IMG/VR virus record: IMGVR_UViG_3300017963_000265 | Span: 1 to 64,000 of that record | Source: a virus | DNA length: 64,000 nucleotides | Direction: 5' to 3' (one strand) | Shown here: positions 22,672-57,700 of the stretch, piece by piece | Layout of the letters: each line of letters starts with the position of its first letter | How positions within the stretch are numbered: the stretch's first letter is position 1 | Position numbers and translations under genes: made by a program | Notes under the pieces: generated by a model | Databases searched by the model: none | What the model was told of the DNA's origin: nothing | What the model saw: the letters and a program-made list of their open reading frames with translations, nothing else

Positions 22672-23300
22672 TTATCCTCCTCTATCATTTCTAAGCCAGC
22701 TCTTAACGAAACCTCATACCACATTTCCACTGTCTTCCTATTCGTATACATCCACCCATAAGACGGGCCAGTGAAATTTGATATCCACCATTCTCTGTAG
22801 ATACTAGAAGGGGCCTTACCTAAATATTTGATTCTACTGATTAGAGACTCAGAGTATGCGGGAAGTTCTATATCTGAAGCCCTTCTTGTCTTGATAAAAG
22901 GAGGCCAGACATATCTTGAGAACACTCCGATTGTTCCGAGCTTCTGAAATTGTTTCAAGTGTACCGCTTCATGCTTTAACACGAAATAGGCAGAAATATG
23001 ATGATTGTACCTTTTGGATCGTAGATAATCATCTAGTTTATCAGACAAGAGAATCGTGTTTTTGAATGTGCTGGTATAGTCGCTGAGGTACTTTCTGTTC
23101 CTGAACAGAGTCAGTAGACACACGACCGCGTGAATAATATACGACCACCAAACATCACGTTTGGCGGCAATTCTTATGTTTGGGTAAAGTACTCTGATCT
23201 CGGTTAATATAGATCTTAGCGGGGATCTGACTTCTGTTTTGACTGTATATTCCTTGCGCTTTCCAATGGACGGAAAGCAGACGGTAACAAATTCTGTCAT
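22668..23300 (-). CDS. HExxH metallopeptidase-like protein
   Basis: A 210-aa protein. KHEAVHLKQFQKLG supplies an HExxH zinc motif, and IELPAYSES about 30 residues later offers a glutamate third ligand followed by AY, an arrangement seen in peptidase-like domains where HExxH is followed by E-x-x-A-Y. A hydrophobic stretch lies at about 55-72. The start MTEFVTV is chosen over an upstream ATG because GGAG lies before it. It may process a phage or host protein; unproven. Confidence 0.6.
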   Translation of the reverse strand: MTEFVTVCFPSIGKRKEYTVKTEVRSPLRSILTEIRVLYPNIRIAAKRDVWWSYIIHAVVCLLTLFRNRKYLSDYTSTFKNTILLSDKLDDYLRSKRYNHHISAYFVLKHEAVHLKQFQKLGTIGVFSRYVWPPFIKTRRASDIELPAYSESLISRIKYLGKAPSSIYREWWISNFTGPSYGWMYTNRKTVEMWYEVSLRAGLEMIEEDK

Positions 23301-23812
23301 TTTTTCTCCATGATATCCCAATGAACACATCTCACACCATGCTCTAGCAGATATTGCTGTGCAGAACCTGATAAGTCATATCTTGAATCATAGGCTCTGG
23401 AAAAAAATACTTCCTCGATACCGGCCCTGATTATGAGTTTAGAACAGTCGAAACAAGGGCTAGCCGTAGTATATATCGATGAACCGACAGGACTAATAGC
23501 CTGTATCGCGCACTGTAGTATGGCGTTGCATTCGGCATGAATCGTTCCTACACAATGCCCGGACACCATCATGTGACCGATTTCTGAGCAATGAGGGACT
23601 TTAGGCGGGGAACCATTGTATCCGGTAGCGATGACACACCCGCCCTTGACTATCGCGGCTCCAACCCCATGTCTACTCGAATCAAATAACAGAGTCGGTC
23701 CTCTGTCGCATGTTGACTGTATGGCAGCCCAATGAGCTAGGAGCATGAAATGTGTGTTCTTGTCTAATCTTGGTATTCTTAAATCTGGGACCTTTATTTT
23801 ACGTGGATTCAT
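23297..23812 (-). CDS. dCMP deaminase
   Basis: A 171-aa protein of the cytidine/deoxycytidylate deaminase family. HAECNAILQCA supplies the zinc His and catalytic Glu, and SPCFDCSKLI the two zinc cysteines (PCxxC). It converts dCMP to dUMP, the substrate of the thymidylate synthase 4 kb downstream in the transcription sense of the same strand. An ATG supported by GGAG is used; a TTG two codons earlier is possible. It overlaps the OPRT gene. Confidence 0.9.
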   Translation of the reverse strand: MNPRKIKVPDLRIPRLDKNTHFMLLAHWAAIQSTCDRGPTLLFDSSRHGVGAAIVKGGCVIATGYNGSPPKVPHCSEIGHMMVSGHCVGTIHAECNAILQCAIQAISPVGSSIYTTASPCFDCSKLIIRAGIEEVFFSRAYDSRYDLSGSAQQYLLEHGVRCVHWDIMEKK

Positions 23813-24426
23813 GAACAACTCCAGAAGTCATTGGATTTGAAGAAACTGTGAATCATCCCCCTTTCCCTATACGCAGATATCTTATCGGCTTCGAATTTAC
23901 CGTCTGCCATCCTATCGACCACACAAAGGACTTGAGTATCGGCCGAAGGGTTAACCTCGTCCACATACTCCAATGTTGGAAGTAGAGAACCTCCCGTCGT
24001 TATCACATCTTCCAATATCAGTATTCTCTTGTCATCTATTGGTTCTGTTCCCACCACTTTCAACTTAAGACCGTGGTCTTTTCTATCATTGCGGACAACA
24101 AATCCATCTAAGAACAATTGAGTAGGTAATTGGGAAAACACCAACATATATGCTGCATCAGCTGGACCTCCAATGGAATTAGGCTTAAACTCCAAAATCA
24201 CGTTCCTTATTAACGAGAACAGTACAAATCTAGTGTATTTATCGAACATGACCCCCTTTATATCGAAGTAGTATTTAGACTTCTTCCCACTAGCAAGAGT
24301 AAATGCGTTATCATCCTTACCGACCATCCCAAATCCTCTTTCTATCATCCCTGTATTGAGTGTTTCTGAAAGCTCCTTAATAATTGACAGGCCAAGACAT
24401 TCTTCCATGCTTCTCGGTCTAGACAT
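23809..24426 (-). CDS. Orotate phosphoribosyltransferase-like protein
   Basis: A 205-aa type I phosphoribosyltransferase. FTLASGKKSKYYFDIKGV matches the OPRT orotate site and RILILEDVITTGGSLLPT the PRPP-binding loop. It would form OMP from orotate and PRPP in pyrimidine synthesis, boosting UMP supply during infection. AGGAGG precedes the ATG. No OMP decarboxylase is in the window. Confidence 0.85.
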   Translation of the reverse strand: MSRPRSMEECLGLSIIKELSETLNTGMIERGFGMVGKDDNAFTLASGKKSKYYFDIKGVMFDKYTRFVLFSLIRNVILEFKPNSIGGPADAAYMLVFSQLPTQLFLDGFVVRNDRKDHGLKLKVVGTEPIDDKRILILEDVITTGGSLLPTLEYVDEVNPSADTQVLCVVDRMADGKFEADKISAYRERGMIHSFFKSNDFWSCS

Positions 24427-24655
24427 TTCTCCCTCCTAATATCGTTTGCTTTGTTTTAGCGGAAATGGACATATAAAGAATCCAACAATGTTGACAAACC
24501 ATCTTAGCCCTGTGCGGTACTACAGTTCCGTCAGCGTATGTGAAATCTTTGGACGAGATTACGGTATTAGCCGGCACATCATTCAGGGCAGTAAGAATAT
24601 GTTTCTTGCAGGCAGAACAGAATATTTTATCACCCCTCTTTATCCCTTCTCTCAC
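24419..24655 (-). CDS. Small zinc-ribbon protein
   Basis: A 78-aa protein with CSACKK near residue 13 and CQHCW near 54, probably one zinc site. The start is read as GTG without a good ribosome binding site and overlaps the upstream gene by 26 nt, so the N-terminus is uncertain. Its stop overlaps the OPRT start. Confidence 0.55.
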   Translation of the reverse strand: MREGIKRGDKIFCSACKKHILTALNDVPANTVISSKDFTYADGTVVPHRAKMVCQHCWILYMSISAKTKQTILGGRNV

Positions 24656-24857
24656 TTCTGACTGTCCTTTCTATGAGCTTCCTACCGCTCGGCCCTTTCT
24701 TAGATTTTGGAAGTTTCTGATAAATGAGGGAGTACAAAACCCCAAACGGACCGGCATCCCACTTCCTCTTGTCGCTGGTCCTCTCCCTCATGTTCTTCAG
24801 TATCACGACCAAATTTTTTGCCAATTGTCCCGGTATTTCCACCGTCACTGTCTTCAT
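24630..24857 (-). CDS. Hypothetical protein
   Basis: A 75-aa basic protein (MKTVTVEIPGQLAKNLVVIL, ending SERRDKEG). GGAG lies 6-7 nt before this ATG, which favours it over one six codons earlier. It overlaps another small ORF (24700-24927). Unknown. Confidence 0.6.
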   Translation of the reverse strand: MKTVTVEIPGQLAKNLVVILKNMRERTSDKRKWDAGPFGVLYSLIYQKLPKSKKGPSGRKLIERTVRSERRDKEG

Positions 24858-24927
24858 CAGAGCTCCTACAAACACACGACTGTCCGCGGTAGTTAAGCTT
24901 TCGATAGCAAAAAATACAGTAAATCAT
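24700..24927 (-). CDS. Small zinc-knuckle ORF, C-terminal half doubtful
   Basis: A 75-aa frame starting MIYCIFCYRK and giving a C-x2-C then C-x-C knuckle by residue 20. After that the sequence is polar and overlaps the better-supported neighbour by 158 nt. I suspect a genuine short zinc-knuckle peptide whose stop was lost, or a chance frame. GGGGA lies 6 nt before the ATG. Confidence 0.35.
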   Translation of the reverse strand: MIYCIFCYRKLNYRGQSCVCRSSDEDSDGGNTGTIGKKFGRDTEEHEGEDQRQEEVGCRSVWGFVLPHLSETSKI

Positions 24928-24938
24928 CGATTATCCCC

Positions 24939-24972
24939 GCGTTTCTACCGGATAATATACCGGTAGAAACGC
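24939..24972 (-). terminator. Perfect hairpin without a U-tract
   Basis: A perfect 13-bp stem with an 8-nt loop between the BRO-like gene and the next small ORF. No T-run follows. Confidence 0.55.
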
Positions 24973-24979
24973 CAGACAA

Positions 24980-26095
24980 CTACTTTTTCAGCTTCCGGCC
25001 GATAATCCACACAGACTTCTGGTCCGCATCTAGTCTCGTTCCATTCTTCTTGTCGATTTTGCGTTTTGGCTTTCTTTTCGTACTATTCTCGAATTCTGAT
25101 TTCAGTAGCAGGAACGCCTCATCCGTATAGAAGTACCTTGAATACATTCTCCCTGTTCTAGAAAGAACATGAATTCTGCATCCGTATGGGTGTTTTCGTA
25201 GACCCAATTTCGTAATCAATGGAATTATCTTCCTGGATGTAGTACCGAGCTTCTTTGACATATCAGAGGACAGATACACGAAAACACTTTTCGATGACTC
25301 ATTAACTTTATCGGGAGGTTCATCGACTTCATCCAGCGGTTCATCAACTGTCACAGGATAAGGTGAGTCTAGCTGAGGAACTTCGCAATCCGCGAGCTTC
25401 ATTCCGCAGACGAGCTCGAGTGCTTTCCTGCGGAACTCGAAAATGTACTTGGTGTCGAATCCCTCCAAGTTTAGAAAATTCACAAAGTCTTTTACGAAAT
25501 CCGTGAGAATCTTCTTGCTCTGAATATCCAACCTGAGTTTTTCTAGTTCTACACTCTTATTGAGCTTATCGCGCTCGAGTTCTAACTTGGCCATCTCTAG
25601 ATTCAGGGACCAGTCTGGTATACTCCGCGGGACCGCACCACCTTCAACTATTTTTGGTACAGAAGGGACATCCGCTATCGTTCCTCTCCTTATCTTAGGT
25701 AGCACCTCTTTCGACAACCAGTGCTTCACCCTTATACAAAAAGGGCGATGAGACATAAGAAGAACCATGTCCATCCCGGCCTCTGTAAGAAACAATTTTC
25801 TTCTCGCTTTTGAGGCGGACCCACACTCCGTCTCAAAATGCTTCATGATATCGCGTAGTTCATCACCCTCCTTGTATAAATAATGGTCCGGGATGTGAAA
25901 TGCATGAGACCACTCACCGTTGATTAGTCTCTGAATCGTATCCTTGGAGTAGCCAATCAACTCCCCAAATTGTTGGGGGTCAATCAAGATAAGATTAATT
26001 CTTTGATCGCAGACTACATCAAGAACCGTCTCATAAAACAAAAACCTGGAAACTGCGTAATCGTTGTCCATATAATTAAATATCAAGTCGCTCAC
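24980..26095 (-). CDS. BRO-N antirepressor-like protein
   Basis: A 371-aa protein. Residues about 100-145 (KLFLTEAGMDMVLLMSHRPF and HWLSKEVLPKIRRG) fit the BRO-N domain found in phage antirepressors and poxvirus/baculovirus Bro proteins. The preceding FGELIGYSKDTIQRLING could be a helix-turn-helix. A central Lys/Glu-rich coiled coil (about 175-215) and a basic C-terminal part follow. Likely a DNA-binding regulator. Start is GTG with GGAGG at good spacing. It opens a unit that runs down through the OPRT and deaminase genes. Confidence 0.65.
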   Translation of the reverse strand: MSDLIFNYMDNDYAVSRFLFYETVLDVVCDQRINLILIDPQQFGELIGYSKDTIQRLINGEWSHAFHIPDHYLYKEGDELRDIMKHFETECGSASKARRKLFLTEAGMDMVLLMSHRPFCIRVKHWLSKEVLPKIRRGTIADVPSVPKIVEGGAVPRSIPDWSLNLEMAKLELERDKLNKSVELEKLRLDIQSKKILTDFVKDFVNFLNLEGFDTKYIFEFRRKALELVCGMKLADCEVPQLDSPYPVTVDEPLDEVDEPPDKVNESSKSVFVYLSSDMSKKLGTTSRKIIPLITKLGLRKHPYGCRIHVLSRTGRMYSRYFYTDEAFLLLKSEFENSTKRKPKRKIDKKNGTRLDADQKSVWIIGRKLKK

Positions 26096-26146
26096 AAAAT
26101 CCTCCTACTTGAGTAGCAAAACAGTATCAGGAATCTTATATCGAAA

Positions 26147-26779
26147 TTATTTCGACTTTTCGAAAATGATCGTCTTACAGGTGGGTTTTCTGCAAAATCT
26201 CTCTGTCCTTTTTTCACTGAACTTGGCTGCCCTCTGGACCGGACCATTATTAAGTCTGTGTACTGGTGACGGCCCGTGTATACGAACAGCGTTTCTATGT
26301 TTTTCGGTAGCATATCCTTTGTGGGAAGCGAATCCGTACGAAGGATATCTCTTATCAGCTTCCAACATATAATCTACTTGGTACTTTTTACTGATTATGC
26401 TGGCTGCTGATACTACCTTGTACTTCTGGTCGGCTCGGGGCTCATACAGGACATCCTTTCTGGAATTAGTCACCCTGACCCCATCCACAATAATCAAGGA
26501 CATGCCATCACACTCCTCTATTAGCTCATCGATGACATGACTCCACGCTGCCCAAATCCCCCCTTCGGTATTGATGAATGACGGATAAGCTATCTTGACT
26601 ATGCATTTATTGGCCAACTCAGTAATTGGGCAGAATAGCTCGTCTACCTGTTTTTGGCTGAGACTCTTCGAATCCCTTACATTCTCTGGGAAGACGACCT
26701 TATCATCCACTATGACAGCGGACATCACCATAGGTCCGGCTATACACCCGATTCCGACTTCATCTATTCCGGCTATCAT
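26147..26779 (-). CDS. rnhB: Ribonuclease HII
   Basis: A 210-aa protein starting MIAGIDEVGIGCIAGPMV, the RNase HII motif with the catalytic Asp-Glu pair, then RDSKSLSQKQ, LIIVDGVRV and AASIISKKYQVDYM, ending in GYATEKHRNAV and HGPSPVHR. It cuts RNA in RNA-DNA hybrids, useful for primer removal in replication. The ATG overlaps the stop of the DHFR gene. Longer readings upstream run into DHFR and are rejected. Confidence 0.9.
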   Translation of the reverse strand: MIAGIDEVGIGCIAGPMVMSAVIVDDKVVFPENVRDSKSLSQKQVDELFCPITELANKCIVKIAYPSFINTEGGIWAAWSHVIDELIEECDGMSLIIVDGVRVTNSRKDVLYEPRADQKYKVVSAASIISKKYQVDYMLEADKRYPSYGFASHKGYATEKHRNAVRIHGPSPVHRLNNGPVQRAAKFSEKRTERFCRKPTCKTIIFEKSK

Positions 26780-27261
26780 TGTATCTCGACGTAGGTGTTG
26801 AACGTGAGAACACCGAGTTTCTCTGACTTGGAGATGACCCACTCGTTTCCCAATTCAGGAAACCGGACAACATTCTTTCCAACTGTTTTGTCTGGAACTA
26901 GGGTAACCTCTATTCTTTCTATCAGCTCCGGATATTTTAGGGCCTCCTCGTACACCATCCCTCCTCCAATGACCCAACAACTTCGATAGCGGTTAGAAAA
27001 CGTCAACGCATCCCTAAAGCTATCGGCTGAAATAGCTCCTCTACCTTTCCACATAGAATCTTTGGTTAGGACATAGTTCGCCCTGCCAGGTAATGGTTTT
27101 TTAGTCAGGGAATCCCAAGTCTGTCTCCCCATTATGACGGAGCCACCTTTTGTCAATTTCTTAAATCTTTTGAGGTCATCGGGATAGTACCAGAACATCT
27201 TCCCGTCTGCTCCGATGACTCTGTCTTCATTCATCGCAACGATGATATTGAAATAACGCAT
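26776..27261 (-). CDS. folA: Dihydrofolate reductase
   Basis: A 161-aa protein with the DHFR signature: FNIIVAMNEDRVIGADGKMF, DDLKRFKKLTKGGSVIMGR, SLTKKPLPGRANYVLTKD, and the CWVIGGGMVYEEAL glycine loop. It regenerates tetrahydrofolate spent by thymidylate synthase, whose gene lies immediately upstream and overlaps it by one base. Confidence 0.92.
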   Translation of the reverse strand: MRYFNIIVAMNEDRVIGADGKMFWYYPDDLKRFKKLTKGGSVIMGRQTWDSLTKKPLPGRANYVLTKDSMWKGRGAISADSFRDALTFSNRYRSCWVIGGGMVYEEALKYPELIERIEVTLVPDKTVGKNVVRFPELGNEWVISKSEKLGVLTFNTYVEIQ

Positions 27262-28145
27262 TATACCGCCGCCTTCATCCTGATTGCTGGAGCAGGATTG
27301 TAATCAACTAATTTGAATGTTTCTAGAATGGTATCCGTCTCCTCATAAATTACTGCCTGCACATCCTCAAGAGTCTGGATATCCCTGTGAATGATAAGAT
27401 TGGGGAGTCTTGTTGGAAACCTTTGCAATTGCTCTTTTAGGGGTCGTAGGTGGTCAAATTTCTCGTTCTCACTTCCTTTCTCAGCAACATAGATGTGAGC
27501 ATCAACTAGAGTATGAGCAAATATCCCAACTTTTATTCCGGTGAATCTTGAGAACAGATGAAGTAGAAACGAGTACCCGGCGATGTTGTAAGGGACTCCC
27601 AATCCCATATCACAACTCCGCTGAGTTAGGTGAAGGCATAGAATAGGTTCCCCACGTTCATCTATTTGCACATTCAATATGAACATCGCATGACATGGAG
27701 GCAGCTTACTGAACCACGCGTTACCAGGAGACCAGGCAGACACAACAATTCTTCTGCTCATAGGATTTGACTTCAGCTCATCAACTGCTGTCCTAATCTG
27801 GTCTAGGAAATATAAGGTACCGTCTCCATCTATTTCAGTCGGAAAATGCCTCCAAAAATTTCCATACGCACTCGGTACATTACCGTATTTATCAGCCCAA
27901 GGGTCCCAGAACTTGCAACCATGCTTTCTCAAAAGTTCTAAGTTAATTTTTCCGGACAAGAACCAGAGGCTTTCAATAACAATATTCTTCCAAGACATTT
28001 TCTTTGTCGTGAGAAGAGGGAATCCCTCTCTCAAATCAATTTCGTAATTGATGTTGAAAGTAGAAATAGTATCTACTCCGGTTCTGTTCTTCTTGAGCGT
28101 GCCGCTACTTATAACTTCTCTTACTGCGTTTAGGTATTGACGCAT
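27261..28145 (-). CDS. thyA: Thymidylate synthase (ThyA type)
   Basis: A 294-aa protein with the ThyA pattern: LKKNRTGVDTIS near the N-terminus, the LPPCHAMFILNVQ segment with the catalytic Cys, QRSCDMGLGVPYNIAGYSFL and HIYVAEKGSEN. It methylates dUMP to dTMP using methylene-THF. Paired with DHFR in one unit, as in many phages. Its ATG overlaps or abuts the stop of the winged-helix gene, with GAGGAC before it. Confidence 0.93.
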   Translation of the reverse strand: MRQYLNAVREVISSGTLKKNRTGVDTISTFNINYEIDLREGFPLLTTKKMSWKNIVIESLWFLSGKINLELLRKHGCKFWDPWADKYGNVPSAYGNFWRHFPTEIDGDGTLYFLDQIRTAVDELKSNPMSRRIVVSAWSPGNAWFSKLPPCHAMFILNVQIDERGEPILCLHLTQRSCDMGLGVPYNIAGYSFLLHLFSRFTGIKVGIFAHTLVDAHIYVAEKGSENEKFDHLRPLKEQLQRFPTRLPNLIIHRDIQTLEDVQAVIYEETDTILETFKLVDYNPAPAIRMKAAV

Positions 28146-29825: not shown

Positions 29826-30157
29826 AAGCTTCAAAGATAAACTACTGTGCAGACAGAAAACACTGGCTGCACATTAGTCACGGACCACCACCCACATCCA
29901 TATATCTGATTCATTACCTAGACGCGGAATTACTCTGTGCTGTGTGGGAATCGGGTAATCTATACAACTGTGCTGTAGAGGATATGACCGAAAGATTCCA
30001 TATGGGGTATCTCCGCACATATAGGATGGTGTCGTGGAATGGAAAGCTGTTGATGCGCTCCAAGTACAAGAAACTCGTCTTTAAGAGCCTCAGAAAACGA
30101 TGCGAGAGTGTATCCAGGATATGCGCTAGATTGTATTGCGGAGAAGATTCTCAATGA
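29822..30157 (+). CDS. Hypothetical protein (rightward)
   Basis: A 111-aa protein from a TTG that overlaps the previous stop (TTGA). Contains HYLDAELLCAVWESGN and a basic C-terminus (KKLVFKSLRKRCE). Its 3' end overlaps the convergent thymidylate kinase gene by 32 nt. Unknown. Confidence 0.6.
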   Translation: MKASKINYCADRKHWLHISHGPPPTSIYLIHYLDAELLCAVWESGNLYNCAVEDMTERFHMGYLRTYRMVSWNGKLLMRSKYKKLVFKSLRKRCESVSRICARLYCGEDSQ

Positions 30158-30737
30158 TTGAGAAGATTGCCGAGACAACAGACTCTAGAACCAGATTAGC
30201 ATCGATATAATGAATAGTCTCATTCCCTATTTTGGCTAGGTTCTTGTACCTGTTAGATAACTCCGCGAGTCTATCAACACCAAATGAATCATGGATTTGT
30301 TTGTCCTTAGTTCTTGATTTTATTCTCTGGATGCAGACTTCAGGGTCTGCATCCAGAACAAATACGGCATCAGGGACCAAATCTATCAACCCTAACCACC
30401 CCTCTAGTACTTTTTTAGGGTACAGGTCCTGCTGGTACACATAATTGCTGTACACGTACCTATCACATACGACGATACAATCTCCTTTCGGATTAACGTA
30501 TCTCGATATGGCCCTATTATGATCGATAGCATCAGCTAGGAATAGGGGAGCGAGAGCACGAGTATCGACTTCTATCTCACCCCTGAGAACGCATCTGATT
30601 AGTGAGCCGATTGGTAATCCGGACGGTTCGTGAGTGAGCATAGCCGGAATCCGAAGCTTATCAACAATCTTCTTCCTAAGAACTCTGGACACAGATGTGG
30701 TACCAGAACCATTCGGTCCTTCGATCACAAAAAACAT
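30126..30737 (-). CDS. tmk: Thymidylate kinase
   Basis: A 203-aa P-loop kinase of the TMK family: FFVIEGPNGSGTTS at residues 2-15, HEPSGLPIGSLIR (the ExPxG motif), LFLADAIDHNRAI, VCDRYVYSNYVYQ (the DRY motif) and FVLDADPEVCIQRIKSR. It phosphorylates dTMP to dTDP. The Walker A lysine is replaced by Thr (GSGTT instead of GSGKT), which is uncommon and could affect activity, though the other motifs are intact. GGAGGTGAG precedes the ATG. Confidence 0.85.
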   Translation of the reverse strand: MFFVIEGPNGSGTTSVSRVLRKKIVDKLRIPAMLTHEPSGLPIGSLIRCVLRGEIEVDTRALAPLFLADAIDHNRAISRYVNPKGDCIVVCDRYVYSNYVYQQDLYPKKVLEGWLGLIDLVPDAVFVLDADPEVCIQRIKSRTKDKQIHDSFGVDRLAELSNRYKNLAKIGNETIHYIDANLVLESVVSAIFSIIENLLRNTI

Positions 30738-30748
30738 CTCACCTCCAT

Positions 30749-30786
30749 ACCTCCAACCCTAAATTTTTTTAAATAGGGTTGGAGGT
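30749..30786 (-). promoter_or_regulatory. Hairpin in front of the thymidylate kinase RBS
   Basis: A perfect 13-bp stem with a 12-nt A/T-only loop ending 11 bases before the kinase ATG and overlapping the stop of the small gene at 30759. It has no trailing T-run. It may fold the region ahead of the ribosome binding site and tune translation. Confidence 0.5.
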
Positions 30787-30929
30787 TTAGGTACTCTGAT
30801 CGGCGGGGTTTTCGCTGTCGGAGGTTTTGGGTTAGATGCGACATCCCTCAACGTAACTTTAGGGACTTCGCCTACCATGGAAATTTTTGTTAGCTCATCG
30901 AAAAACGATTTTTTCTGGGCATCAGTCAT
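30759..30929 (-). CDS. Small protein with SFFDELxKIS motif
   Basis: A 56-aa frame between the histone-fold gene and thymidylate kinase. Its start MTDAQKKSFFDELTKIS matches the N-termini of two proteins in the head/tail region (47481 and 39631), and the rest is Pro/Lys-rich and disordered. No clear ribosome binding site precedes the ATG. The motif is the main support. Confidence 0.5.
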   Translation of the reverse strand: MTDAQKKSFFDELTKISMVGEVPKVTLRDVASNPKPPTAKTPPIRVPKPPTLFKKI

Positions 30930-30953: not shown

Positions 30954-31232
30954 CTATAAGTCGACAGGCCTGACCGTCTTTCGGCCGTTGTTCTGTGCAC
31001 GGATAATGGCTCCTTGCAGGACACTCTGAACTTTTTCGTTCAGACTCTGGACAAGGTCCCCAGAGATATTCGTTTCGTTGTCCGCGAGGAATGTCTTCAC
31101 TGTGGAAGCAACAACGAACTTCTTTTCACCGTTACCGTTGCTTCCTCCTTCCTCAGTTTTGGCTTCCTTCTTCTTCGTCACCTTCTTTTCTTCTTTCTCT
31201 TCTTTTTCTTTGCGCGGTCGTCCTCTTGGCAT
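30954..31232 (-). CDS. AT-hook/histone-fold DNA-binding protein
   Basis: A 92-aa basic protein. Residues 2-8 (PRGRPRK) are a classic AT-hook, followed by a Lys/Glu-rich linker (9-37). Residues 38-92 follow a single histone-fold pattern: helix ASTVKTFLA, loop, long helix GDLVQSLNEKVQSVLQGAI, and RAQNNGRKTVRPVDL, which matches the RKT...DL end of archaeal and bacterial histone-fold proteins. Chromatin-like DNA packing or origin binding is inferred. AAGGAGG precedes the ATG and a sigma-70-like promoter lies just upstream. Confidence 0.75.
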   Translation of the reverse strand: MPRGRPRKEKEEKEEKKVTKKKEAKTEEGGSNGNGEKKFVVASTVKTFLADNETNISGDLVQSLNEKVQSVLQGAIIRAQNNGRKTVRPVDL

Positions 31233-31252
31233 GTTTGCCTCCTTTTTGACGA

Positions 31253-31281
31253 TTTATAATCGTTTCTTTTCTGCCGTTCAA
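31253..31281 (-). promoter_or_regulatory. Sigma-70-like promoter for the histone-fold gene
   Basis: On the minus strand TTGAAC and TATAAA are 17 nt apart, ideal spacing. The start point would fall about 14 nt before the ATG. The -10 lies inside a small inverted repeat (31249-31263), perhaps an operator. Confidence 0.45.
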
Positions 31282-31465
31282 CTGTTTTTTAGGTCTTCAG
31301 AAAGATTTCTTGCTAGATTCTGGTACCTCCTGCGAAATAACTGGACAACTCGTAACCATTTCTGACTTCAATCATGAGCTGGGATAAAGCCAGACACACT
31401 GAAACCAACTTCGTTGTCCAAAAAAAGTTGATCCGTGCGAAATTTTGGGTGTACCCAAAACAGTG

Positions 31466-31497
31466 TTTCCATAGATAGCTGGTGCTATCTATGGAAA
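31466..31497. repeat. Hairpin, 14-bp stem
   Basis: A perfect 14-bp inverted repeat with a 4-nt loop, directly next to a separate TTTTGGG/CCCAAAA palindrome at 31443-31460. Could be an operator or a transcript hairpin. Confidence 0.7.
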
Positions 31498-31548
31498 TTT
31501 CGAGGTTTAGTATAGTTGAAGAACCCTGACTCAGAATCAATCAGGAAG

Positions 31549-31667
31549 AAATTTTTTTTCTGGAGAAATATTTTATTTCTATCTTTCATTGTTTCTTTAT
31601 TCAACTAACCGTGTTTAAAGATATATAGAAAGATATAGAAAAGTGAACGTCTCCAGAAAAAAAATTT
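31549..31667. repeat. 18-bp inverted repeat around an AT-rich centre
   Basis: Perfect arms at 31549-31566 and 31650-31667, each with an 8-base A or T run. The 83 nt between them are AT-rich with near-direct repeats. Confidence 0.85.
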
Positions 31668-31958
31668 TTTTCTTAATCGATTCACTACCTCCTCCCAGAA
31701 CTACAGACTCCAAAAAACGATCTTCAAGATTTAAGCGTCAGGTTATGCAAAATCTTGAAGATAGCTTCAGAAAATACCCCCAAAAACGGCCCCAAAATCA
31801 CCCTTACGGGTGCATGTTTTGGTTGGACAGTTGTACATCTTTTTTGGTGATCCAGGTGGATGGATGTACATCTTGGATCAGTTGACAAGAACTTCAGTTC
31901 ATGATATGAATGTCTTGATTCAAGACATTCAACAGAGCTAAAAAATCAGCCCAAAAAA

Positions 31959-31995
31959 TATCCCCGTACTTGTTCAGGTATCAAGTACGGGGATA
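31959..31995 (-). terminator. Probable terminator of the leftward gene at 32146
   Basis: A perfect 14-bp stem with a 9-nt loop, followed on the minus strand by six Ts. Two further hairpins (32030-32055 and 32115-32133) lie between it and the gene. Confidence 0.75.
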
Positions 31996-32145
31996 AGAAA
32001 AAACCAACCACTACTAAGCGATAAAATTTGGACTCTGGCACCATTACCAGAGTCCACGGTCCTGCATATTAGTCCAAGAACCTTAAGTGTCCGGCACTCT
32101 GGCCGAATATCTAGGGGTTCTGTACCAGAACCCGTGGCCTCCTTC

Positions 32146-33618: not shown

Positions 33619-34401
33619 TTATCCCTGTGTATACGGATATTGTTGATAGCCGAAATTGTAAGGAAGTGGATGTCTGGCTGACTCTGAAGCATAATTAACC
33701 GCAGCTGGGACACCTTTGTACAGCCCGTACGCTCCTGTAGCCATTAACGCACCCGGCACGAGAGACCTGATTAAGCCCTTTTGTTTGGTGACTGGTTTCT
33801 CTTTTGAGGAAATCTCAGGTTTGGCTGTCACAGTAGGCTTCACTTTGACATCAGGTTTTGCCGATGTTCTATACGGTCCTGCCTTAACTTGTGTATCAAC
33901 TTTCGGGGCCTTGACTCTACCTAATGGTGACTGCAATGACCTAACTCTACCGACACCCTCACCTAGTTGGGTGGTCTTAATGGGACTTCTTATAGGGCTT
34001 TGAAGAACTCTACCCACTCTCCCTGCTATTCCTCCCCGCCCCGCCAAGTTCGAAGCCGTTCTTCTTCCCAATCGAAGCAATTTCCCGACATACGCATGCT
34101 TATCAAGTTCATGAAAATCGGTATACGTATCCGAAACTGAAACTGGGAGCTCTCTACCTAATCCCTTACTAGGTTCGATTTTTTTGGATATGTCCTCGTT
34201 AGAGAAAACAGATTCATCTTTTTTGTCGTATTCAGATAACGCATCTACTGTTGCTATATCAGGATGTCTTCCGGCAATGGTCGTTTGCAGAGCACCGTAT
34301 AGAGAGGCCTGCTTAGCAAGACCAGAACATACCCCACCTAGACACCTTGAAGCGATGTCTAGGTGGGCTTTTCTCTTAGCTATTTCATTGAAATCTATCA
34401 T
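33619..34401 (-). CDS. Basic, partly disordered virion-like protein
   Basis: A 260-aa protein starting MIDFNEIAKR, the ATG overlapping the tube candidate's stop. It has a low-complexity basic middle (repeated R-V-L-Q-S-P-L/I-K, KVKPTVTAKPEISSK) and a hydrophobic Gly-rich stretch (about 220-245) near the C-terminus. Longer readings start in the preceding gene and are rejected. Located at the end of the tail module; function unknown. Confidence 0.65.
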   Translation of the reverse strand: MIDFNEIAKRKAHLDIASRCLGGVCSGLAKQASLYGALQTTIAGRHPDIATVDALSEYDKKDESVFSNEDISKKIEPSKGLGRELPVSVSDTYTDFHELDKHAYVGKLLRLGRRTASNLAGRGGIAGRVGRVLQSPIRSPIKTTQLGEGVGRVRSLQSPLGRVKAPKVDTQVKAGPYRTSAKPDVKVKPTVTAKPEISSKEKPVTKQKGLIRSLVPGALMATGAYGLYKGVPAAVNYASESARHPLPYNFGYQQYPYTQG

Positions 34402-35123
34402 GCTCCGCCAAGAATAGAAGCTGAAGCTCCGGTTATCAAGCTCAAAGCGTTGACCGCGACTGGAACAGCTCTCTCGAATTGAACAGCCGCAGATTCTTGA
34501 ATCATCACACCCTGAGCATCTGTCGCCCATGTGTGATTTGGGATGAATGCCGCTTCTAAGTAAACTGCTCCTACTGTGTCTTCGTTACTGTCCCTCACAT
34601 AAACCAGCAACCCAATCGGTTGATTAAACAAATCAGATGCAAGATTCAGATACAGATTCTCGTATCCTGGAGGTACCTTCACGTCATGAGGGTTTGCTAC
34701 TGTCGCCGCGCCAGCATTCGGAAATACCGATGGTACTGTCGTAGGAGGGATTAGGTCCTCATAGTACGCGTACATCATTCTCAACAAACTCGGGCCATGA
34801 TACATGACACGGGCTATCGATAACTGACCCATCGTACGACCGGAAATGTGATAACTTCTTTCACTCCCGACCTCGAATATGCGCATAAACTGCCTGTTAT
34901 GACTCAGATTAAGATTCTGAACCACACCAAGCGGTAGCACTATCTGGTCTGCCCCTGTTCCTGATAGAGCTCCAGCTGTTACCGTGGCTCCTCCGATATT
35001 CGCCAGTCTGGGGGGACCGGCGGCTATCATCGTAAAGCCCGCAGAAATGAATTGACCGTCAACGAGACCCGCTTGTACGTAGTGCTCGTATGGAGCCCAT
35101 TCTGAAAATCTTCCGCTAGCCAT
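34398..35123 (-). CDS. Putative tail tube protein
   Basis: A 241-aa beta-rich protein directly downstream of the tail sheath, where the tube gene stands in many myophages. It contains QFMRIFEVGSERSYHISGRT, which fits the start of a tube-like barrel, then LSIARVMYHGPSLLRMMY. AGGAG precedes the ATG. The call rests on position and composition. Confidence 0.5.
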   Translation of the reverse strand: MASGRFSEWAPYEHYVQAGLVDGQFISAGFTMIAAGPPRLANIGGATVTAGALSGTGADQIVLPLGVVQNLNLSHNRQFMRIFEVGSERSYHISGRTMGQLSIARVMYHGPSLLRMMYAYYEDLIPPTTVPSVFPNAGAATVANPHDVKVPPGYENLYLNLASDLFNQPIGLLVYVRDSNEDTVGAVYLEAAFIPNHTWATDAQGVMIQESAAVQFERAVPVAVNALSLITGASASILGGA

Positions 35124-38885: not shown

Positions 38886-39662
38886 TTAAGACTCCTTCAC
38901 ACTTAGCTGCTGCATTAAAGCTATTTGTCTGATTGGCCGTCCTCGTATTGACGGAGGTCTTACGGCGACGTTCTCCGTTCTGGCCGAGGCGATTTGTTGG
39001 TCTCTGGTGAATCCCGTTTGAGCTCCGAGCTCAACAGATATGTTCGCTTCTATCTCACTCAATACCTGTTGATTCAGAGGAGTGACTTTGCCGTATACCT
39101 GCATGAAATACGGAATCGGAATCGTTGTATTTATCCACGTCTCATCAGAATCTCCAGAAACTATTGCTCCTGCTGGAGACGGGGCACTTATTTGAAGTCC
39201 TTGCCCGAATTCATGAACCGGCGTGTGTTTCATTACCAGTGATCTGAGCAACCAACAATGACTGGCAACTATCCACGCTATTCTTTCGCTCTCTAGGGAG
39301 ACCTTGGAACAGCAGTTCACGATGATTGTCCCGCTGACTAAATCAGTATGCTTTTTTTGTCCGGTTCTAGAATCTATTGTCTGCATCGTATCAAGGGATG
39401 TCCTATTCCAAGCTACCGTCCCTCTGACAATGCTGATTGCTGGCCTTATTCCTACTACTTCTAATTGGATGGGGGTTTCATCTGTGATGATTATTTCAGT
39501 GTCTTCCAGGCTTGGTTGCCACCGAAAGTATCCTGTCTCTGCATTCCCGAAAAGTCCCTGAAGAAAGGCAAGTACTAGTTTCCTGATGCGAAGAAGCGGT
39601 TGCTCCTGCCAACTAGTAACTGAGCTTCCGCTAGCTTGTATTGTTCCTGATGGTATTGTCAC
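38886..39662 (-). CDS. Neck or tail-completion protein candidate
   Basis: A 258-aa protein just ahead of the sheath, starting at GTG. Beta-rich, including strands GTIIVNCCSKVSLES and WINTTIPIPYFMQVYG. Position suggests a tail terminator or head-tail joining protein. It overlaps the small gene at 39631 by 32 nt. No motif is decisive. Confidence 0.5.
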   Translation of the reverse strand: MTIPSGTIQASGSSVTSWQEQPLLRIRKLVLAFLQGLFGNAETGYFRWQPSLEDTEIIITDETPIQLEVVGIRPAISIVRGTVAWNRTSLDTMQTIDSRTGQKKHTDLVSGTIIVNCCSKVSLESERIAWIVASHCWLLRSLVMKHTPVHEFGQGLQISAPSPAGAIVSGDSDETWINTTIPIPYFMQVYGKVTPLNQQVLSEIEANISVELGAQTGFTRDQQIASARTENVAVRPPSIRGRPIRQIALMQQLSVKES

Positions 39663-39966
39663 CTGTCTTCTCTAGCAAATCAGATATCATCTTTGACCTT
39701 GCTAACTTATATGCTGTACCCAAAGCCGCTGCTGTGGGAAGCGCATAACTCAAAACCTTAGCCGGTCCTGCCTTCATGCCGTATTCAATGACCTTTTTTT
39801 GGATAGGTCTTCCTATCAATTTTCCGGTTCCGTAACCAACTCCTAGAGATGCGGCAGCCGGGATTCCATATCTGAGGAATTTCTTGAACCTCTCTCCAGT
39901 TATTTTTTCCTTGTCTTGTTCTTCAGAGATCTTTTCCAGCTCATCTATGAAGGAGTCTAAATTCAT
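39631..39966 (-). CDS. Small membrane/virion-like protein with FIDELEKIS motif
   Basis: A 111-aa protein beginning MNLDSFIDELEKISEEQDK, then two Gly/Ala-rich hydrophobic stretches (about 33-52 and 74-88) between basic segments. The N-terminal motif recurs at 47481 and 30759. Function unknown; probably in the virion. Confidence 0.6.
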   Translation of the reverse strand: MNLDSFIDELEKISEEQDKEKITGERFKKFLRYGIPAAASLGVGYGTGKLIGRPIQKKVIEYGMKAGPAKVLSYALPTAAALGTAYKLARSKMISDLLEKTGDNTIRNNTS

Positions 39967-47480: not shown

Positions 47481-47762
47481 CTAGTACCTAACGGGCGGCG
47501 GAGGGGCCATTTTGGCGTTCATCCCAACGCTGATATCTGTACCCGGTGCCTCTACGTTAGATCTCGTATAGTTTGTGTTTAACCCCTTCTTAGTAGCAGG
47601 ATTAATCACTTTAGCTTTTAGTTTAACCGGACTTATTGGAGGCTTTATCTCTCCAGGCTTAGTCGGAACTTCGCTCTGTGTACCGCTAATAGAATGTGCG
47701 ATATCTGCAGAAATTTTCTCCAGTTCGTCAAAGAAAGCAGATTTTGAAATTCCGTCTATCAT
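47481..47762 (-). CDS. Small protein with SAFFDELEKIS motif
   Basis: A 93-aa protein starting MIDGISKSAFFDELEKISAD and continuing as a Pro/Lys-rich disordered tail (IKPPISPVKLKAKVINP). The motif is shared with genes at 39631 and 30759. AGAGA precedes the ATG. Probable virion component. Confidence 0.6.
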   Translation of the reverse strand: MIDGISKSAFFDELEKISADIAHSISGTQSEVPTKPGEIKPPISPVKLKAKVINPATKKGLNTNYTRSNVEAPGTDISVGMNAKMAPPPPVRY

Positions 47763-48696: not shown

Positions 48697-51639
48697 CTAT
48701 TTACTTTGTACCAAGTTCTCACCAGCATTAATTGCTGTGGCTATTACTTCATCTGGTACTGATGTGCCAGATGCTTTCAACGCTGTTAAACCTACCACAG
48801 TATTAGCTAACTGTGGATAATCTGCGTATAACTGAGTAAGGATATCCGGTTCTCTTCCGGCCTTCAAATCTTTCTGCATCTGTCTTCTGGCGAAGACAGT
48901 CATCAAATAAGTAGCGGGTACTGCTCCCAACATATCCTCATATTCTTTCGATTGTTGGGATGCGGTTTTCGAGAACATGTCCGTGAGGTCCCTTCCATAT
49001 ATCTCAGACCTCAAATTTGGATACCTGTGAAGTTCTCCGCTCAAGCTAGAGATTTTCTCAATCACATTCTCTCTGTACCCGTTATACGCGGCGGATATCT
49101 TATCAAGGAGCTTGTCTTCGACTTCTCTCGGTTCCTGTTCTTCTTCAGGGGTTCCATGGATGACTATCTTAATCATCCTTCTTTTTAGGACAGGTCCGAA
49201 AGCGCTTCTCCCTTCAATCAACCCCTTCAACATTTCGGCAATTTGATCGTTGATGTGTTGGGGACCGATTTGAACCGATTTGTCGACATCATCTACTTTT
49301 CTGAAAACGCAATTTTCCCTATCCAACTCATCGGCCATATCCCTGTTCCCGATTCTCATAATGACAATTCTCTGGAACTCTTTCGGCTTCAGGGTAATGC
49401 CGGCCATACATGGGGTTGACAGGGATTCCTGAAGTGGATGTTCAGACATCATATCCAGAAATTGCCTCGGCAAATCAGGTTCCGCCCTTTCAATTAAGCT
49501 AACTGCTTTGTCCCCAAACTGGGACGGTACAATCCTTTTTGTATGCTCTGCGCTTTTTAGTTGTGAGGCTTTTTTCTTGAACTCTTTGAGTAAATTTCTG
49601 GCCCCTTCTACAGATGCTGATTTCTCGAATCCATAGGATTTATCTGTGTACTCGGAGACTGGCGGAAGATTTCTTGGAACGGATATGAATCCTCTAGAAG
49701 CTAGTTTCGCCATTACCTTCGAAGTTTTTTCTGCGCCTATAAAGACGAAACTGATGTCAAAGAATCGTGGATATGGATTATAGACAAACACTTTCCTGCC
49801 ATCAGGAAGAATATCATTCCTTCTGGTCTTAAAGATGTCTGTCCATTCATCCTTGTCTATGGCTAGTCCTTGTATAGGACGTTTTGTTTTGTGGTAATGA
49901 AGGACAGCAAAACCAGGATGTCTATGAACATTTGGGTTGTACGTCGCTAAGGCCTTCTTATACTCGTCCCAGTCGGTGGTGATAGAACAGAGATCGAATA
50001 GGACCTTCGCCCCCATGCTAGTTTCTGGGAGCTCTCCATGGTCTATCTTATCAATTACCCTCTGGGCGTTGGCTAGTTCAGCCATTTGTCTGTCGAGTCT
50101 TGCTACGACCTCTACCCGATGCATGTTCGGATTCCAGCAACTTAATTCCACAGAGCCGAACACCCTGGCATCCGGTCCCTTATTACAGTTATGGACTAGT
50201 ACTTCCCCGGCCACATATTCTGGAACGTCATCAACCTCAAGATTGTATAAGTCCTCGTCCAGAAAGGTATCTTCTTTCCCAGTAACACGTACCAGGAAAA
50301 AGTTACCTATAACTGGACGCGGCCTAAAAACTTTCATGTCTTTGATATAATATTTCCTAGAATATAGTGTTATCTCCTGGGAGAATTGTGGAGTCACCGT
50401 AACTGTTCCACTGCCGCTACACCAATAAGTTTTCCCGTTCGGAAATGTTCTATATCCAGGTTTTTGGTCCCATTGAATAGTAGTGGGAATTCCCAGCGCC
50501 CGTATTATGTCGGATAAGACCTTTAACATTTGCTGGGAAGAGGATCGAATCCTTAATTGCCCTTCGTTTCTTCCTTTTTTAGGGACATGCCCGTCACCGT
50601 CAATATAAACTCCCAATAAAAGTTTTATGGCGCGCTCATTCCACGACAGAACTCTTCCAGTTAGATGCTTCTCAGATTTCACGCCCACGACATACTCTTG
50701 AAGTCTGTCCCACAATTCAACCGACCAGGACGATAAAACTACCTGCTCTTTATCTGGTATGTCAGTCTTGGTAACATTCAGCCCATTGTTCTTCAGACAA
50801 TCACTGACAGATTTTATATCCTCGTGATTAAATTCGCAGAACGTGAACTGAATCATGCCTCGCTGTCCCGCACAGTATCCTTCAGATGCTACCCAACCGA
50901 CTAATTCTGCGAATTCGTCCGGAATCTGCTCGCCTCCCAACTGCGGACGAGGAAACACCATATAGTCTCCGGGAAGTACTTCTCCTAATGGGATTTCTTT
51001 TAGAGACAGGGAAATCTTGTCAAGACATGATGGGTACTCTTCGAAATGACGTTGCTCTGGTCTGAGTCTGGAGTACTTATGTGAGCAATGTATTTGATCC
51101 CGCTGAAAAACAAAAACAGGATGGTCCCAGCTTCCCTCTATATCTTCTTCCACTCCCGATAAAGATAGTCGAACACCTGGTCCGCTGTAATGGCGGCTTA
51201 TAGAACGTTTAACCGGGCGAGGGCCTAATCTCGTTTCTACTAATTCTCCGGATTTGATTAGAGCGATAGGCTTCCTTATCCGATCACCCATCACTACTTC
51301 TGTCCCTGCCCTAAAACAATGGTGCATGAACGGCTTCGCATAATGAACGAATGTCTCGTACCCGTATATCGGGCCTGAGTGCATCAACATCTCTTCTTCG
51401 AATGCGTCGCCGTTGATGTTGCTGGAATAATATTCAAACGCTCCCAGTGCATTAATTAGAGCGTAGATGGACTTTGGGTCAGGTTTTAACCTATCGATGA
51501 ATTCCCTTACCTGTGGAAGGTAGGGAGCGGCCAGCTTATCCATATACGAATGATGGAGTTGGTCCGGATGGTGAAGGATTGTTAGGACCTGCTGGCCGTG
51601 ATCATCGAATGGTCTATAATTGCAGAGTTTAGTGTGCAT
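48697..51639 (-). CDS. Head maturation protease-like protein with intein
   Basis: A 980-aa frame: extein residues 1-107 and 485-980 (about 603 aa after splicing) around a 377-aa intein. The N-extein has SSNINGDAFEEEM and VHYAKPFMHH, and the C-extein starts CNKGPDARVFGSVEL, then HRVEVVARLD and TSMGAKVLFDLCS. This order is that of a group of phage head proteases/core proteins. The long C-terminal part carries DKISAAY, EKISSLSG and SKTAS motifs. The ATG has a weak ribosome binding site. Protease chemistry itself is not proven here. Confidence 0.65.
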   Translation of the reverse strand: MHTKLCNYRPFDDHGQQVLTILHHPDQLHHSYMDKLAAPYLPQVREFIDRLKPDPKSIYALINALGAFEYYSSNINGDAFEEEMLMHSGPIYGYETFVHYAKPFMHHCFRAGTEVVMGDRIRKPIALIKSGELVETRLGPRPVKRSISRHYSGPGVRLSLSGVEEDIEGSWDHPVFVFQRDQIHCSHKYSRLRPEQRHFEEYPSCLDKISLSLKEIPLGEVLPGDYMVFPRPQLGGEQIPDEFAELVGWVASEGYCAGQRGMIQFTFCEFNHEDIKSVSDCLKNNGLNVTKTDIPDKEQVVLSSWSVELWDRLQEYVVGVKSEKHLTGRVLSWNERAIKLLLGVYIDGDGHVPKKGRNEGQLRIRSSSQQMLKVLSDIIRALGIPTTIQWDQKPGYRTFPNGKTYWCSGSGTVTVTPQFSQEITLYSRKYYIKDMKVFRPRPVIGNFFLVRVTGKEDTFLDEDLYNLEVDDVPEYVAGEVLVHNCNKGPDARVFGSVELSCWNPNMHRVEVVARLDRQMAELANAQRVIDKIDHGELPETSMGAKVLFDLCSITTDWDEYKKALATYNPNVHRHPGFAVLHYHKTKRPIQGLAIDKDEWTDIFKTRRNDILPDGRKVFVYNPYPRFFDISFVFIGAEKTSKVMAKLASRGFISVPRNLPPVSEYTDKSYGFEKSASVEGARNLLKEFKKKASQLKSAEHTKRIVPSQFGDKAVSLIERAEPDLPRQFLDMMSEHPLQESLSTPCMAGITLKPKEFQRIVIMRIGNRDMADELDRENCVFRKVDDVDKSVQIGPQHINDQIAEMLKGLIEGRSAFGPVLKRRMIKIVIHGTPEEEQEPREVEDKLLDKISAAYNGYRENVIEKISSLSGELHRYPNLRSEIYGRDLTDMFSKTASQQSKEYEDMLGAVPATYLMTVFARRQMQKDLKAGREPDILTQLYADYPQLANTVVGLTALKASGTSVPDEVIATAINAGENLVQSK
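50188..51318 (-). other. Intein in the head protease gene (377 aa)
   Basis: Residues 108-484 of the frame. Starts CFRAGTEVVMGD (block A, splicing Cys), has GSWDHPVF (block B, xxDH type), LAGLIDADG-type blocks LVGWVASEGY and LLGVYIDGDGH (catalytic acidic residues present), and ends LYNLEVDDVPEYVAG, VLVHN, with Cys as the +1 residue. So it is a mini-maturation intein with a homing endonuclease of the LAGLIDADG class that looks intact. Confidence 0.88.
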
Positions 51640-54741: not shown

Positions 54742-57700
54742 CTATGCTGTCTCTTTCCTCGGAACGATTATATCCGGTCGCGGATATTTAATCATGCTTG
54801 CAAGCATACAATACAGGATTGAATGAAATGAGTCATCTGTATTCCCTGGAGAATGCCTGTAGACGGTCATCTTTTTCCCCCTTACCTCAACCTCTTCACT
54901 GAAGATATTGAGAATGTCCTTTCCGTAGGGGTCGGCAAAATCATTCCAGTTAGGAACTCTGATATCTTTTCTTATCATAGCCTGGAAGATATCGGTCATG
55001 ACTTCTGTTCTATGAACAGCGAATCTCATAAGGCCTTCATCCCAGTACACCTTCCCCTTTTTCTGGTCAGGATTGTACTGGAACTTGAATACCCTATTAG
55101 GGCCGAATTCTCGAATTAGTCTAGCATTCTTGTCGAATCCTCCACCATAGTCACAACCAACGATACTTACATTGAAATGGGTTATGATCTCCGAGACTCT
55201 TCGAATTTGTATCTCTGGGTCTAGGTCTTCTCCAGTGAATCTGTGAATCCAGAAGATAGTGAAGTTTCCGTCCCCCATATAACACCCAAGAGAAATTACC
55301 GTATACGAATTCTCGCCAGTATTCCCTTGATACGCTACCTTTCCATTTCTTTCTGTTACTATGTATCCAGAAGGAACTTTGCAGCAGTAGACTTTGCCGC
55401 TATAAGGAACTCTTTTAATTTTTTTGGCTGGTGTATTGAAGTGGAAATCCCTTCCTCTCGACCACATCGCTCTCCATATCGCTTTTCTGTTTCCTGATGC
55501 GTGTTTATGGAGAGATACCGAACATCTCAGCCCTAATTTTATGCATATCTCTTGGAAATCCTCGCACAACCCTTTCGAGGTTGAGGAGTAATATCCATTG
55601 AAATTTTTGTCTCTCTTATCCTCGCTCCCATCCCCCAACATCATAGATTTGAATAGTATACGGAGCTGTCTTTTTGATAATCTCAAGAACTCTCTTGGGA
55701 TCCTTTTCAATTCAGTGCTTTCCCCGACATTCTCAAAAAACCACTTCCAGTACTGCTTTCCCTTTATCGACCAATTTATATCGCTTGTATCTCGATTAAG
55801 AAATTCTGAGAACGGTATGTCTGATCTAATCATACACAATCTTATCTTGTCTACATTTTCTGGAGATGAGGACTCTCTTTGCGACATCTTTACAGCATAT
55901 GGGACTCTTTTGGATTTATCAGACTTGCTAGTCCTTAGGCAGACTCCTCCCTCAGATAAGTAATATCCGAGAAACTCTAGCCAGTCATCCATATCAAAAG
56001 TCTTAGATTCACATCCTCCATACCCCGAACTTTTTGGTAATCCTGGAAGTTCGAATGACTTTCTTTCTTCACCTTTCCAGCACACGTACCCGACAAATTT
56101 TACGTTTCCTCCTCTTTCAGCAGTTTTATCTGCGGATTCCGTAACCCAATTTCCGCTTTTTACTCCTCTAACCCGCATACGATGCGTGCCGGTTACCATC
56201 AAATCCATCCCGCCCTTGGTTTCGAAATGATAAAGAGGATCTCTCCACTTACGAACTGTTCTTACTACCGGCTTAACGAAAGACATCTCCCTAGTATCTG
56301 GATCCCATTGAGCGACTTTGTCTTCATCAGTAAGTTCCTTAAAAAATTTCCATCCGATATCAGTCAGAATCCTAGTTTCCTCGTCATGACACCCCCAATC
56401 AATTCCAGCGAACACAGGCTTTCCTTGAACTATGGTTCGAAGGTGTTCGTAGTCTGCAAGATAATATACTGGTTGGCAGCAGGCCTCTACCTGGGTCCTA
56501 TTTATAGGTCTGATACCTGAGTCATAGCTCATCCCAAGAACTTCATTTATGAACTTCTGTCTAGAATATCGCTCATATTTTGATCTTAGTTCCAGCCACG
56601 CTGTCTCTTTTTTTAGTATCCACGGAACCATGAGCTGAGAGATTCTATATCCATCAAACGTGACTCTCTCTTTATTGGCCTCCGTAACTGGATTTAATGA
56701 AGCCCATTGTGCACTCGGGTGCGCGGGGTCTATGAGGTTCCCACATTTTTCGCAGATGACCCCCTTCAACCCTATATTCCTCTCCCCCAGGATGTTCCAA
56801 TACCAGGAACTCTTATCCTTCGGTGTACCGTGATGCTCACACGGAACGACCCATTCATTCTGAGTAGAGAAGTTGGACCAATAATACTCGATTGTGTTAT
56901 CCAGAGATTTAGGAGTCCCTGAATAGATAAAAATTTTGAATGGAGAGTGAGAAGCGCACTCTTCTATAACTGGGATATTATCGACGATGATATCCTGTAT
57001 CTCATCAATGGATATGAGGTCTGCGGGTATACCTCTTACTCTATCGGCATTCAGATAAGCATATCTTATCCTGATTTGTGAATAGTTTATGAATTTCTTG
57101 TGGAATACTGCATTCGTCAGTACCGAGTTCGTGTAAGCTTTTACTGTGGGGGACAGAGCTATAGGTTCAGATATTCTGTCATTCGAAAAAACTTTAGCTT
57201 GCTCTGCCGAAGATGATACGTACAGTGAGCGAAAGTGATTATTCAGGCACGAGTACGATATTATCTTATTTCCTAGAGATGTAGAATTGTGGGTAATGAT
57301 GCCGTCTATACAGTAATTGTGAAATCTTTCTGTTTCGACGTGATAGACATCGTTCTCGCCGAGGTCCTCAATTTCTACTATCTCATCCCATATGATATCC
57401 GAGAAATATAGATTTCTCAGGGATGTGTACAGGTAATCGTCTGTATCTATTCTACTCTCGAAGAAATCCAGGTACCTCTTAATTGTCTGTCTATTTGGGG
57501 GGTGTCTCAGTTTCCTCCTAAACCCGTTTTTTCTTAAACTGTCATACTCTCCTCTTCCTCTCTTATCTCCTATTCCACATTTTCGGCACATCCCGTCTAT
57601 TAGCGGCTGAACTATAGACAGGGGAAACGTGTCTCTGTTGCTGTTACTCTTTTTGTCGTCTACAAATTCAAAATCAGTGAACAGGCTTAAGAATTTCTTT

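Follow-up and report, generated by a model that had tools for sequence, protein, structure and literature searches.

The window analysed here, a 64,000-nucleotide stretch of a 70,134-bp virus record, encodes a 92-residue protein (P0001) that joins an AT-hook motif to a histone fold carrying the signature residues of the alpha3 face-to-face (FtF) histones, and the gene resides in a lineage of large tailed phages. On balance, P0001 probably acts as a phage FtF histone with an AT-hook tail of its own, whose tetramer would wrap DNA and so compact or organise the replicating phage genome.

Results

Architecture of the gene and protein

The reading frame (start codon 31230-31232, stop codon 30954-30956) has a ribosome-binding site spaced 5 nt from the ATG. 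Its translation begins MPRGRPRK...NNGRKTVRPVDL, and the full 92-residue sequence is MPRGRPRKEKEEKEEKKVTKKKEAKTEEGGSNGNGEKKFVVASTVKTFLADNETNISGDLVQSLNEKVQSVLQGAIIRAQNNGRKTVRPVDL. The protein is basic (pI 9.7), with a net charge of +4 on tail residues 1-37 and a weakly basic histone core (+2). Its parts are as follows.

30954..31232 (including the stop codon), minus strand: AT-hook and FtF histone gene P0001, 92 aa (sequence, profile and model)
31209..31229, minus strand: AT-hook PRGRPRK, residues 2-8 (sequence)
31122..31208, minus strand: linker, residues 9-37, charged, K/E-rich then G/N-rich, low-confidence and predicted to be disordered (AlphaFold2 pLDDT about 46-57)
30957..31121, minus strand: alpha3 histone fold, residues 38-92, with helix 42-51, helix 60-81 and a one-turn end (sequence and model)
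30957..31121, minus strand: FtF residues of the fold, R78, N82, R84, T86 and D91 (alignment)
31238..31243, minus strand: Shine-Dalgarno AGGAGG 5' of the ATG (sequence)

The first-pass annotation had described a 92-aa protein combining an AT-hook with a single histone fold, a description upheld by its sequence, by profile matches, by the predicted structure and by synteny among phages. The same evidence supports the DNA-binding, chromatin-like role that it had thought likely, and from it we infer binding and condensation.

Searches and predicted structure

Searches against histone families agreed with this assignment. As a single sequence, P0001 matched the bacterial histone HLp in the PDB (9qt0, phmmer E=5.1e-8) and then the archaeal FtF histone HTkC, while its family profile reached 9qt0 at E 3.6e-27. 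Relatives were found at 47 loci in genome contigs of Planctomycetota, Myxococcota, Bdellovibrionota, Leptospiraceae and several archaea, and an HMM of cellular FtF histones built from 46 of these loci matched P0001 in a six-frame search (E=1.5e-19). Pfam, NCBIfam and PHROGs gave no match above cut-off, so ordinary annotation would miss the gene. Weak Pfam and NCBIfam matches to the N-terminus of S49 peptidases and to SohB were rejected as products of the low-complexity K/E tail.

The AlphaFold2 model, a single chain predicted from a 54-row alignment, has a core with pLDDT of 81-91, the two helices listed above and an unstructured tail. Foldseek placed free and DNA-bound HLp (9qt0/9qt1) at the top of its ranking, with TM-scores by target length of 0.92/0.95 and rmsd of 0.9/0.8 Å over 55-57 columns; the scores by query length (0.57-0.60) are low because the tail is disordered. 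The histone fold anticipated for the protein was thus recovered; the strands anticipated with it were not, as DSSP assigned none and the model consists of a helix, a long helix and the one-turn end.

Assignment to the FtF class

What defines alpha3 histones is truncation of the third helix; FtF histones are those alpha3 histones with residues that join dimers at both ends (R48 and N52 in the family profile; PMC11390915). In HLp, dimers are joined through R49, N53 and R55, and R55 forms a clamp with D62 (PMC12701072). HLp R49/N53/R55/D62 correspond to R78/N82/R84/D91 of P0001, and because all four are present the protein belongs, by sequence, to the FtF histones of bacteria and archaea. Consistent with this, the predicted alpha2 is shortened, alpha3 amounts to about one turn at the C-terminus and the chain ends at residue 92; the RxT...D motif with its R-D clamp is present (R84, T86 and D91), as is the conserved alpha1 lysine (HLp K17, here K46). 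The pattern R..N.R.T....D is complete in nine of the ten phage histone copies of the lineage. The earlier proposal that the fold forms a dimer is therefore refined: a dimer would still be the building block, but for this class a torus-shaped homotetramer is expected.

The closest studied relative, HLp of Leptospira perolatii (PDB 9qt0-9qt2; PMC12701072), is 42% identical over 59 columns and superposes on the truncated alpha3 fold at 0.8-0.9 Å. The two proteins have in common the tetramer residues, the R-D clamp and the VASxVK and RxTVRPxD segments; P0001 differs in being encoded by a phage and in its AT-hook, its 37-residue tail and its changed DNA contacts. Five of the nine DNA-contact positions of HLp (A13, S14, K17, G29 and T57) are identical in P0001 (A42, S43, K46, G58 and T86), and at a sixth, T56, P0001 has a lysine (K85). 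Three contacts are lost (K15 to T44, K21 to A50 and T27 to I56). HLp is a tetramer by SEC-MALS that wraps about 60 bp, gives MNase protection and reorganises the nucleoid in E. coli, and it binds DNA without sequence preference (PMC12701072). It is from HLp that tetramer formation and DNA wrapping by P0001 would be predicted; the weakly basic core and the loss of two contact lysines count against the wrapping model.

Other histone types fit less well. HTkC of Thermococcus kodakarensis (PDB 9f2c; PMC11390915) resembles P0001 in fold (TM-score by target length 0.87) and in FtF class, but is only 33% identical and has no tail. The bacterial dimer histones of Bdellovibrio (HBb/Bd0055; PDB 8cmp, 9ezz, 8fvx) have the same alpha3 fold (0.81-0.85) but lack the dimer-joining R and N (PMC11390915), and P0001 is ruled out as a member because it retains both as R78 and N82. 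The published 'phage histones' (A0A2E7QIQ9 type, PMC11390915) are alpha3 proteins of tailed phages, as is P0001, but place the fold at the N-terminus, followed by a tetramerising C-terminal alpha-helix, and lack RxTxxxD. Conversely, P0001 has an N-terminal AT-hook, contains RKTVRPVD and ends with the fold, one residue past the clamp aspartate, leaving no C-terminal tetramerisation domain; this type was therefore also ruled out. A DUF1931 pseudodimeric histone was excluded by the presence of one fold only and by the absence of a PF09123 match. It should be noted that a natural tandem, with two FtF-like folds in one chain, occurs on a Peribacteraceae contig (candidate phyla radiation; L044:3001-3351).

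Distribution in a lineage of large myophages

The virus record carries a terminase (phrog_675, split by an intein), a major head protein (phrog_2522) and a tail sheath (phrog_2839). Distant relatives of the head protein (25-27% identity) occur in Salmonella phage Arash and in Vibrio phages of about 180 kb. The intein (Intein_splicing, LAGLIDADG) lies in the large terminase (54742-58974, minus strand); another protein of the head module (48697-51639, minus strand) has an inserted LAGLIDADG domain, probably a further intein.

With the tail-tube-like gene as anchor, 81 related IMG/VR records of up to 210 kb were collected. Whole-record profile searches identified exactly one FtF histone in each of ten of the 82 records, the window included, and none in the remaining 72, many of which are fragments, suggesting that the histone is dispensable in the lineage. 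In eight of the ten carriers the gene is syntenic: it follows the tail-tube-like gene by 3-7 kb and shares its strand. A thymidylate kinase gene follows the histone gene in the window and in three related records (L051, L052 and L053), and these four phages form one group on the tail-tube tree (support 89/77); in the window, L051 and L052 a small gene with an FFDEL motif lies between the two. L051 and L052 additionally encode, between the histone and the FFDEL gene, a 107-119-aa protein of no known family (starting ...TTWELH; L051:17587-17946 and L052:16446-16769) that is missing in the window phage.

Presence of the histone is clustered on the tail-tube tree (2 of 500 shuffles were as low), with about seven gains or losses needed. 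Identity to P0001 among the aligned phage histones is only about 32-50%, so residence in the lineage is not recent; the histone phylogeny itself, with 62 columns, is too short to root or to date transfers. P0001 is a real phage gene.

HU/IHF-type proteins (PF00216), which like P0001 are small DNA-architectural proteins but of an unrelated fold, were above cut-off in 28 of the 82 records (L051-L138). Because they coexist with the histone in three of the ten carriers, the histone was rejected as a simple HU replacement.

Simpler searches did not lead to the lineage: neither a single-sequence IMG/VR search and a three-sequence alignment nor tblastn of 50,697 phage records with a number of histone queries gave relatives that were convincing. 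Weak matches in Campylobacter and Salmonella phages had E of 0.1-0.6 and 40-42% identity over 40 residues.

Histones in other phage groups

Profiles of cellular FtF histones identified two further phage groups. An unrelated 82-kb phage (L222) has an FtF-like histone flanked by an SSB-like gene on one side and a RecA/UvsX-like recombinase on the other, in a cluster with primase, DNA polymerase and ligase (L222:580-7843), and this arrangement supports a histone role in DNA metabolism. Two 44-kb contigs (L219:3980-4168 and L220:3980-4168) encode an alpha3 histone without the FtF R and N, and thus dimer-like; with the L219 copy, HLp is matched at 2.4e-7 and HBb at 1.1e-6. Near the histone gene of the two contigs lie a thymidylate synthase ThyX gene and, as judged by eye, an MgtC-like gene.

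The AT-hook tail

Residues 2-8 (PRGRPRK) have the RGRP core and the proline and basic flanks of an AT-hook. RGRP or partial matches occur in other open reading frames of the window, none of which has the full P-RGRP-RK context. When the tail residues were shuffled, RGRP arose in 0.13% and PRGRPRK in 0 of 200,000 trials. The motif is absent from the nine other phage histones of the lineage, whose short tails are lysine-rich or neutral, and from 91 cellular histone rows (two sets of 46 and 45, with one row in both), whose tails are K/A-rich or missing. As judged by these sequences, the AT-hook is private to this phage among the relatives checked, and so would be an addition rather than a family trait. 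Since it sits on the flexible tail of a DNA-binding protein, it likely binds the minor groove of A/T-rich DNA.

Gene neighbourhood and upstream region

The features that flank the histone gene are as follows.

30759..30929, minus strand: small protein, 56 aa, with N-terminal FFDELTKIS motif (sequence)
30126..30737, minus strand: thymidylate kinase, which closes the small set of genes (phrog_761, E 7e-28)
31233..32145, no strand: five inverted repeats in an apparently non-coding, AT-rich stretch of 39% GC (sequence)
31466-31497, minus strand: terminator-like hairpin that parts P0001 from the upstream genes (sequence)
34398..35123, minus strand: tail-tube-like protein (named by its position beside the sheath; no PHROG match)

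This order, with all genes on the minus strand, bears out the view that P0001 is the first gene of a unit continuing into a small gene and the thymidylate kinase gene, and the inverted-repeat region said to adjoin it was found upstream as the stretch of about 0.9 kb. GC content there is 39%, falling to 35.5% nearest P0001, against 44.5% overall. Two hairpins in the stretch are perfect over 14 nt (31466-31497 and 31959-31995), no Rfam family matched it, and its nine promoter-like matches are not a clear excess over the 7.1 found in shuffles. The stretch could be an origin or a regulatory region. A similar long non-coding region 5' of the histone in the relatives was withdrawn, since only plus-strand reading frames had been listed and the conserved stretches look like minus-strand genes.

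The N-terminal motif of the 56-aa protein, F-x-D-E-L-x-K-I-[AS], recurs in small proteins at 39631-39966 and 47481-47762 (both minus strand), and in L051:17965-18486 and L052:16788-17126; it may act as a signal for capsid targeting or for a prohead protease. Elsewhere in the window, a minus-strand cluster at 23297-28145 comprises, as judged by eye, deoxycytidylate deaminase, orotate phosphoribosyltransferase, dihydrofolate reductase and thymidylate synthase, a strong pyrimidine/dTTP emphasis, and also includes RNase HII (Pfam E 1e-26).

Discussion

The mechanism favoured here begins with P0001 being made during infection and dimerising through its long central helix. Two dimers would join at both ends via R78, N82 and R84 into a ring-like tetramer, around which about 60 bp of DNA would wrap irrespective of sequence, the behaviour measured for HLp. 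On its flexible tail at the N-terminus, the AT-hook would reach the minor groove of A/T-rich DNA close by, where it may add grip to a core that has lost HLp contacts or tether a second DNA segment. The most likely use of such a protein would be in compacting or organising the phage genome while it replicates, before it is packaged. The link to replicating DNA is drawn from gene neighbourhoods, namely the thymidylate kinase gene downstream of the histone in four phages and the replication cluster that surrounds the L222 histone. A more far-reaching version can be offered only tentatively: the lineage may chromatinise its own replicating genome with a true DNA-wrapping FtF histone, which in this phage the AT-hook would aim at A/T-rich DNA. 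Such chromatin, built from histones and not from HU-like proteins, might protect phage DNA against silencing or the nucleases of the host.

Among the rivals, an action on the chromatin of the host is the strongest, since the likely host groups use the same histone family; the two readings differ in the DNA that is targeted and in the host that they call for. P0001 could form mixed tetramers with a host FtF histone, or remodel the host nucleoid, and thereby stop host transcription or free DNA for reuse. Histones of this type are common in plausible hosts: a profile that probably picks up dimer-type histones as well had matches in 154 of 379 Myxococcota genomes and in 333 of 369 Bdellovibrionota genomes. 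The interface residues of P0001 are conserved with cellular FtF histones, and production of HLp in E. coli leads to a decondensed nucleoid and longer cells (PMC12701072). Mixed tetramers are so far hypothetical, however, and the tail-tube profile, used to look for a host, gave one weak match among 379 Myxococcota genomes and none among 392 Planctomycetota genomes; host-directed action is regarded as rather unlikely, though by no means negligible.

Less probable still is a local regulator, in which a dimer or tetramer would be guided by the AT-hook to the A/T-rich stretch of hairpins at 31233-32145 to control late/early switching or the start of replication. The base composition and inverted repeats of that region, and the restriction of the AT-hook to this phage, are what such a regulator would lead one to expect. 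Conversely, HLp binds DNA non-specifically, the relatives of P0001 manage without an AT-hook, and the promoter-like matches do not clearly exceed those in shuffles.

A virion protein that condenses DNA in the capsid, as the histones of Marseilleviridae do, has a viral precedent (cited in PMC11390915), and P0001 does lie between the tail module and a small reading frame whose FFDELTKIS motif recurs in structural-region genes. But P0001 itself lacks this motif, its other neighbours are DNA-metabolism genes and most relatives lack the histone yet presumably package similar genomes, which makes this role quite improbable. That P0001 is a recently captured host gene or an assembly artefact, functionless in the phage, would suit its patchy distribution (10 of 82 records) and the at least two changes forced in a poorly resolved histone tree, but is very improbable and already largely refuted by synteny: the frame is intact with a ribosome site, and gene position held in eight phages by histones only about 32-50% identical argues for long residence under selection.

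As far as could be seen, P0001 represents a known histone class in a new setting and with a new tail. In the open-access literature, searched in full text, accounts of FtF histones are confined to archaea and bacteria (PMC12701072, PMC11390915), and no report of them in tailed phages was found. The term 'phage histones' is used there in two papers only, PMC11390915 and PMC12701072; the proteins described under it in PMC11390915 are a different alpha3 class, from a survey that covered UniProt through InterPro and not IMG/VR. More such histones are probably hidden in phage genomes, because their genes fall below the Pfam, NCBIfam and PHROGs cut-offs.

The results suggest that certain phages use true histones to organise DNA inside the cells they infect. 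Syntenic FtF histones in a large-phage lineage, together with the histone of the L222 replication cluster, offer a route by which histones could pass between domains. The AT-hook tail is a natural experiment on how tails affect wrapping, and at 92 residues P0001 makes the question of true chromatin in phages directly testable.
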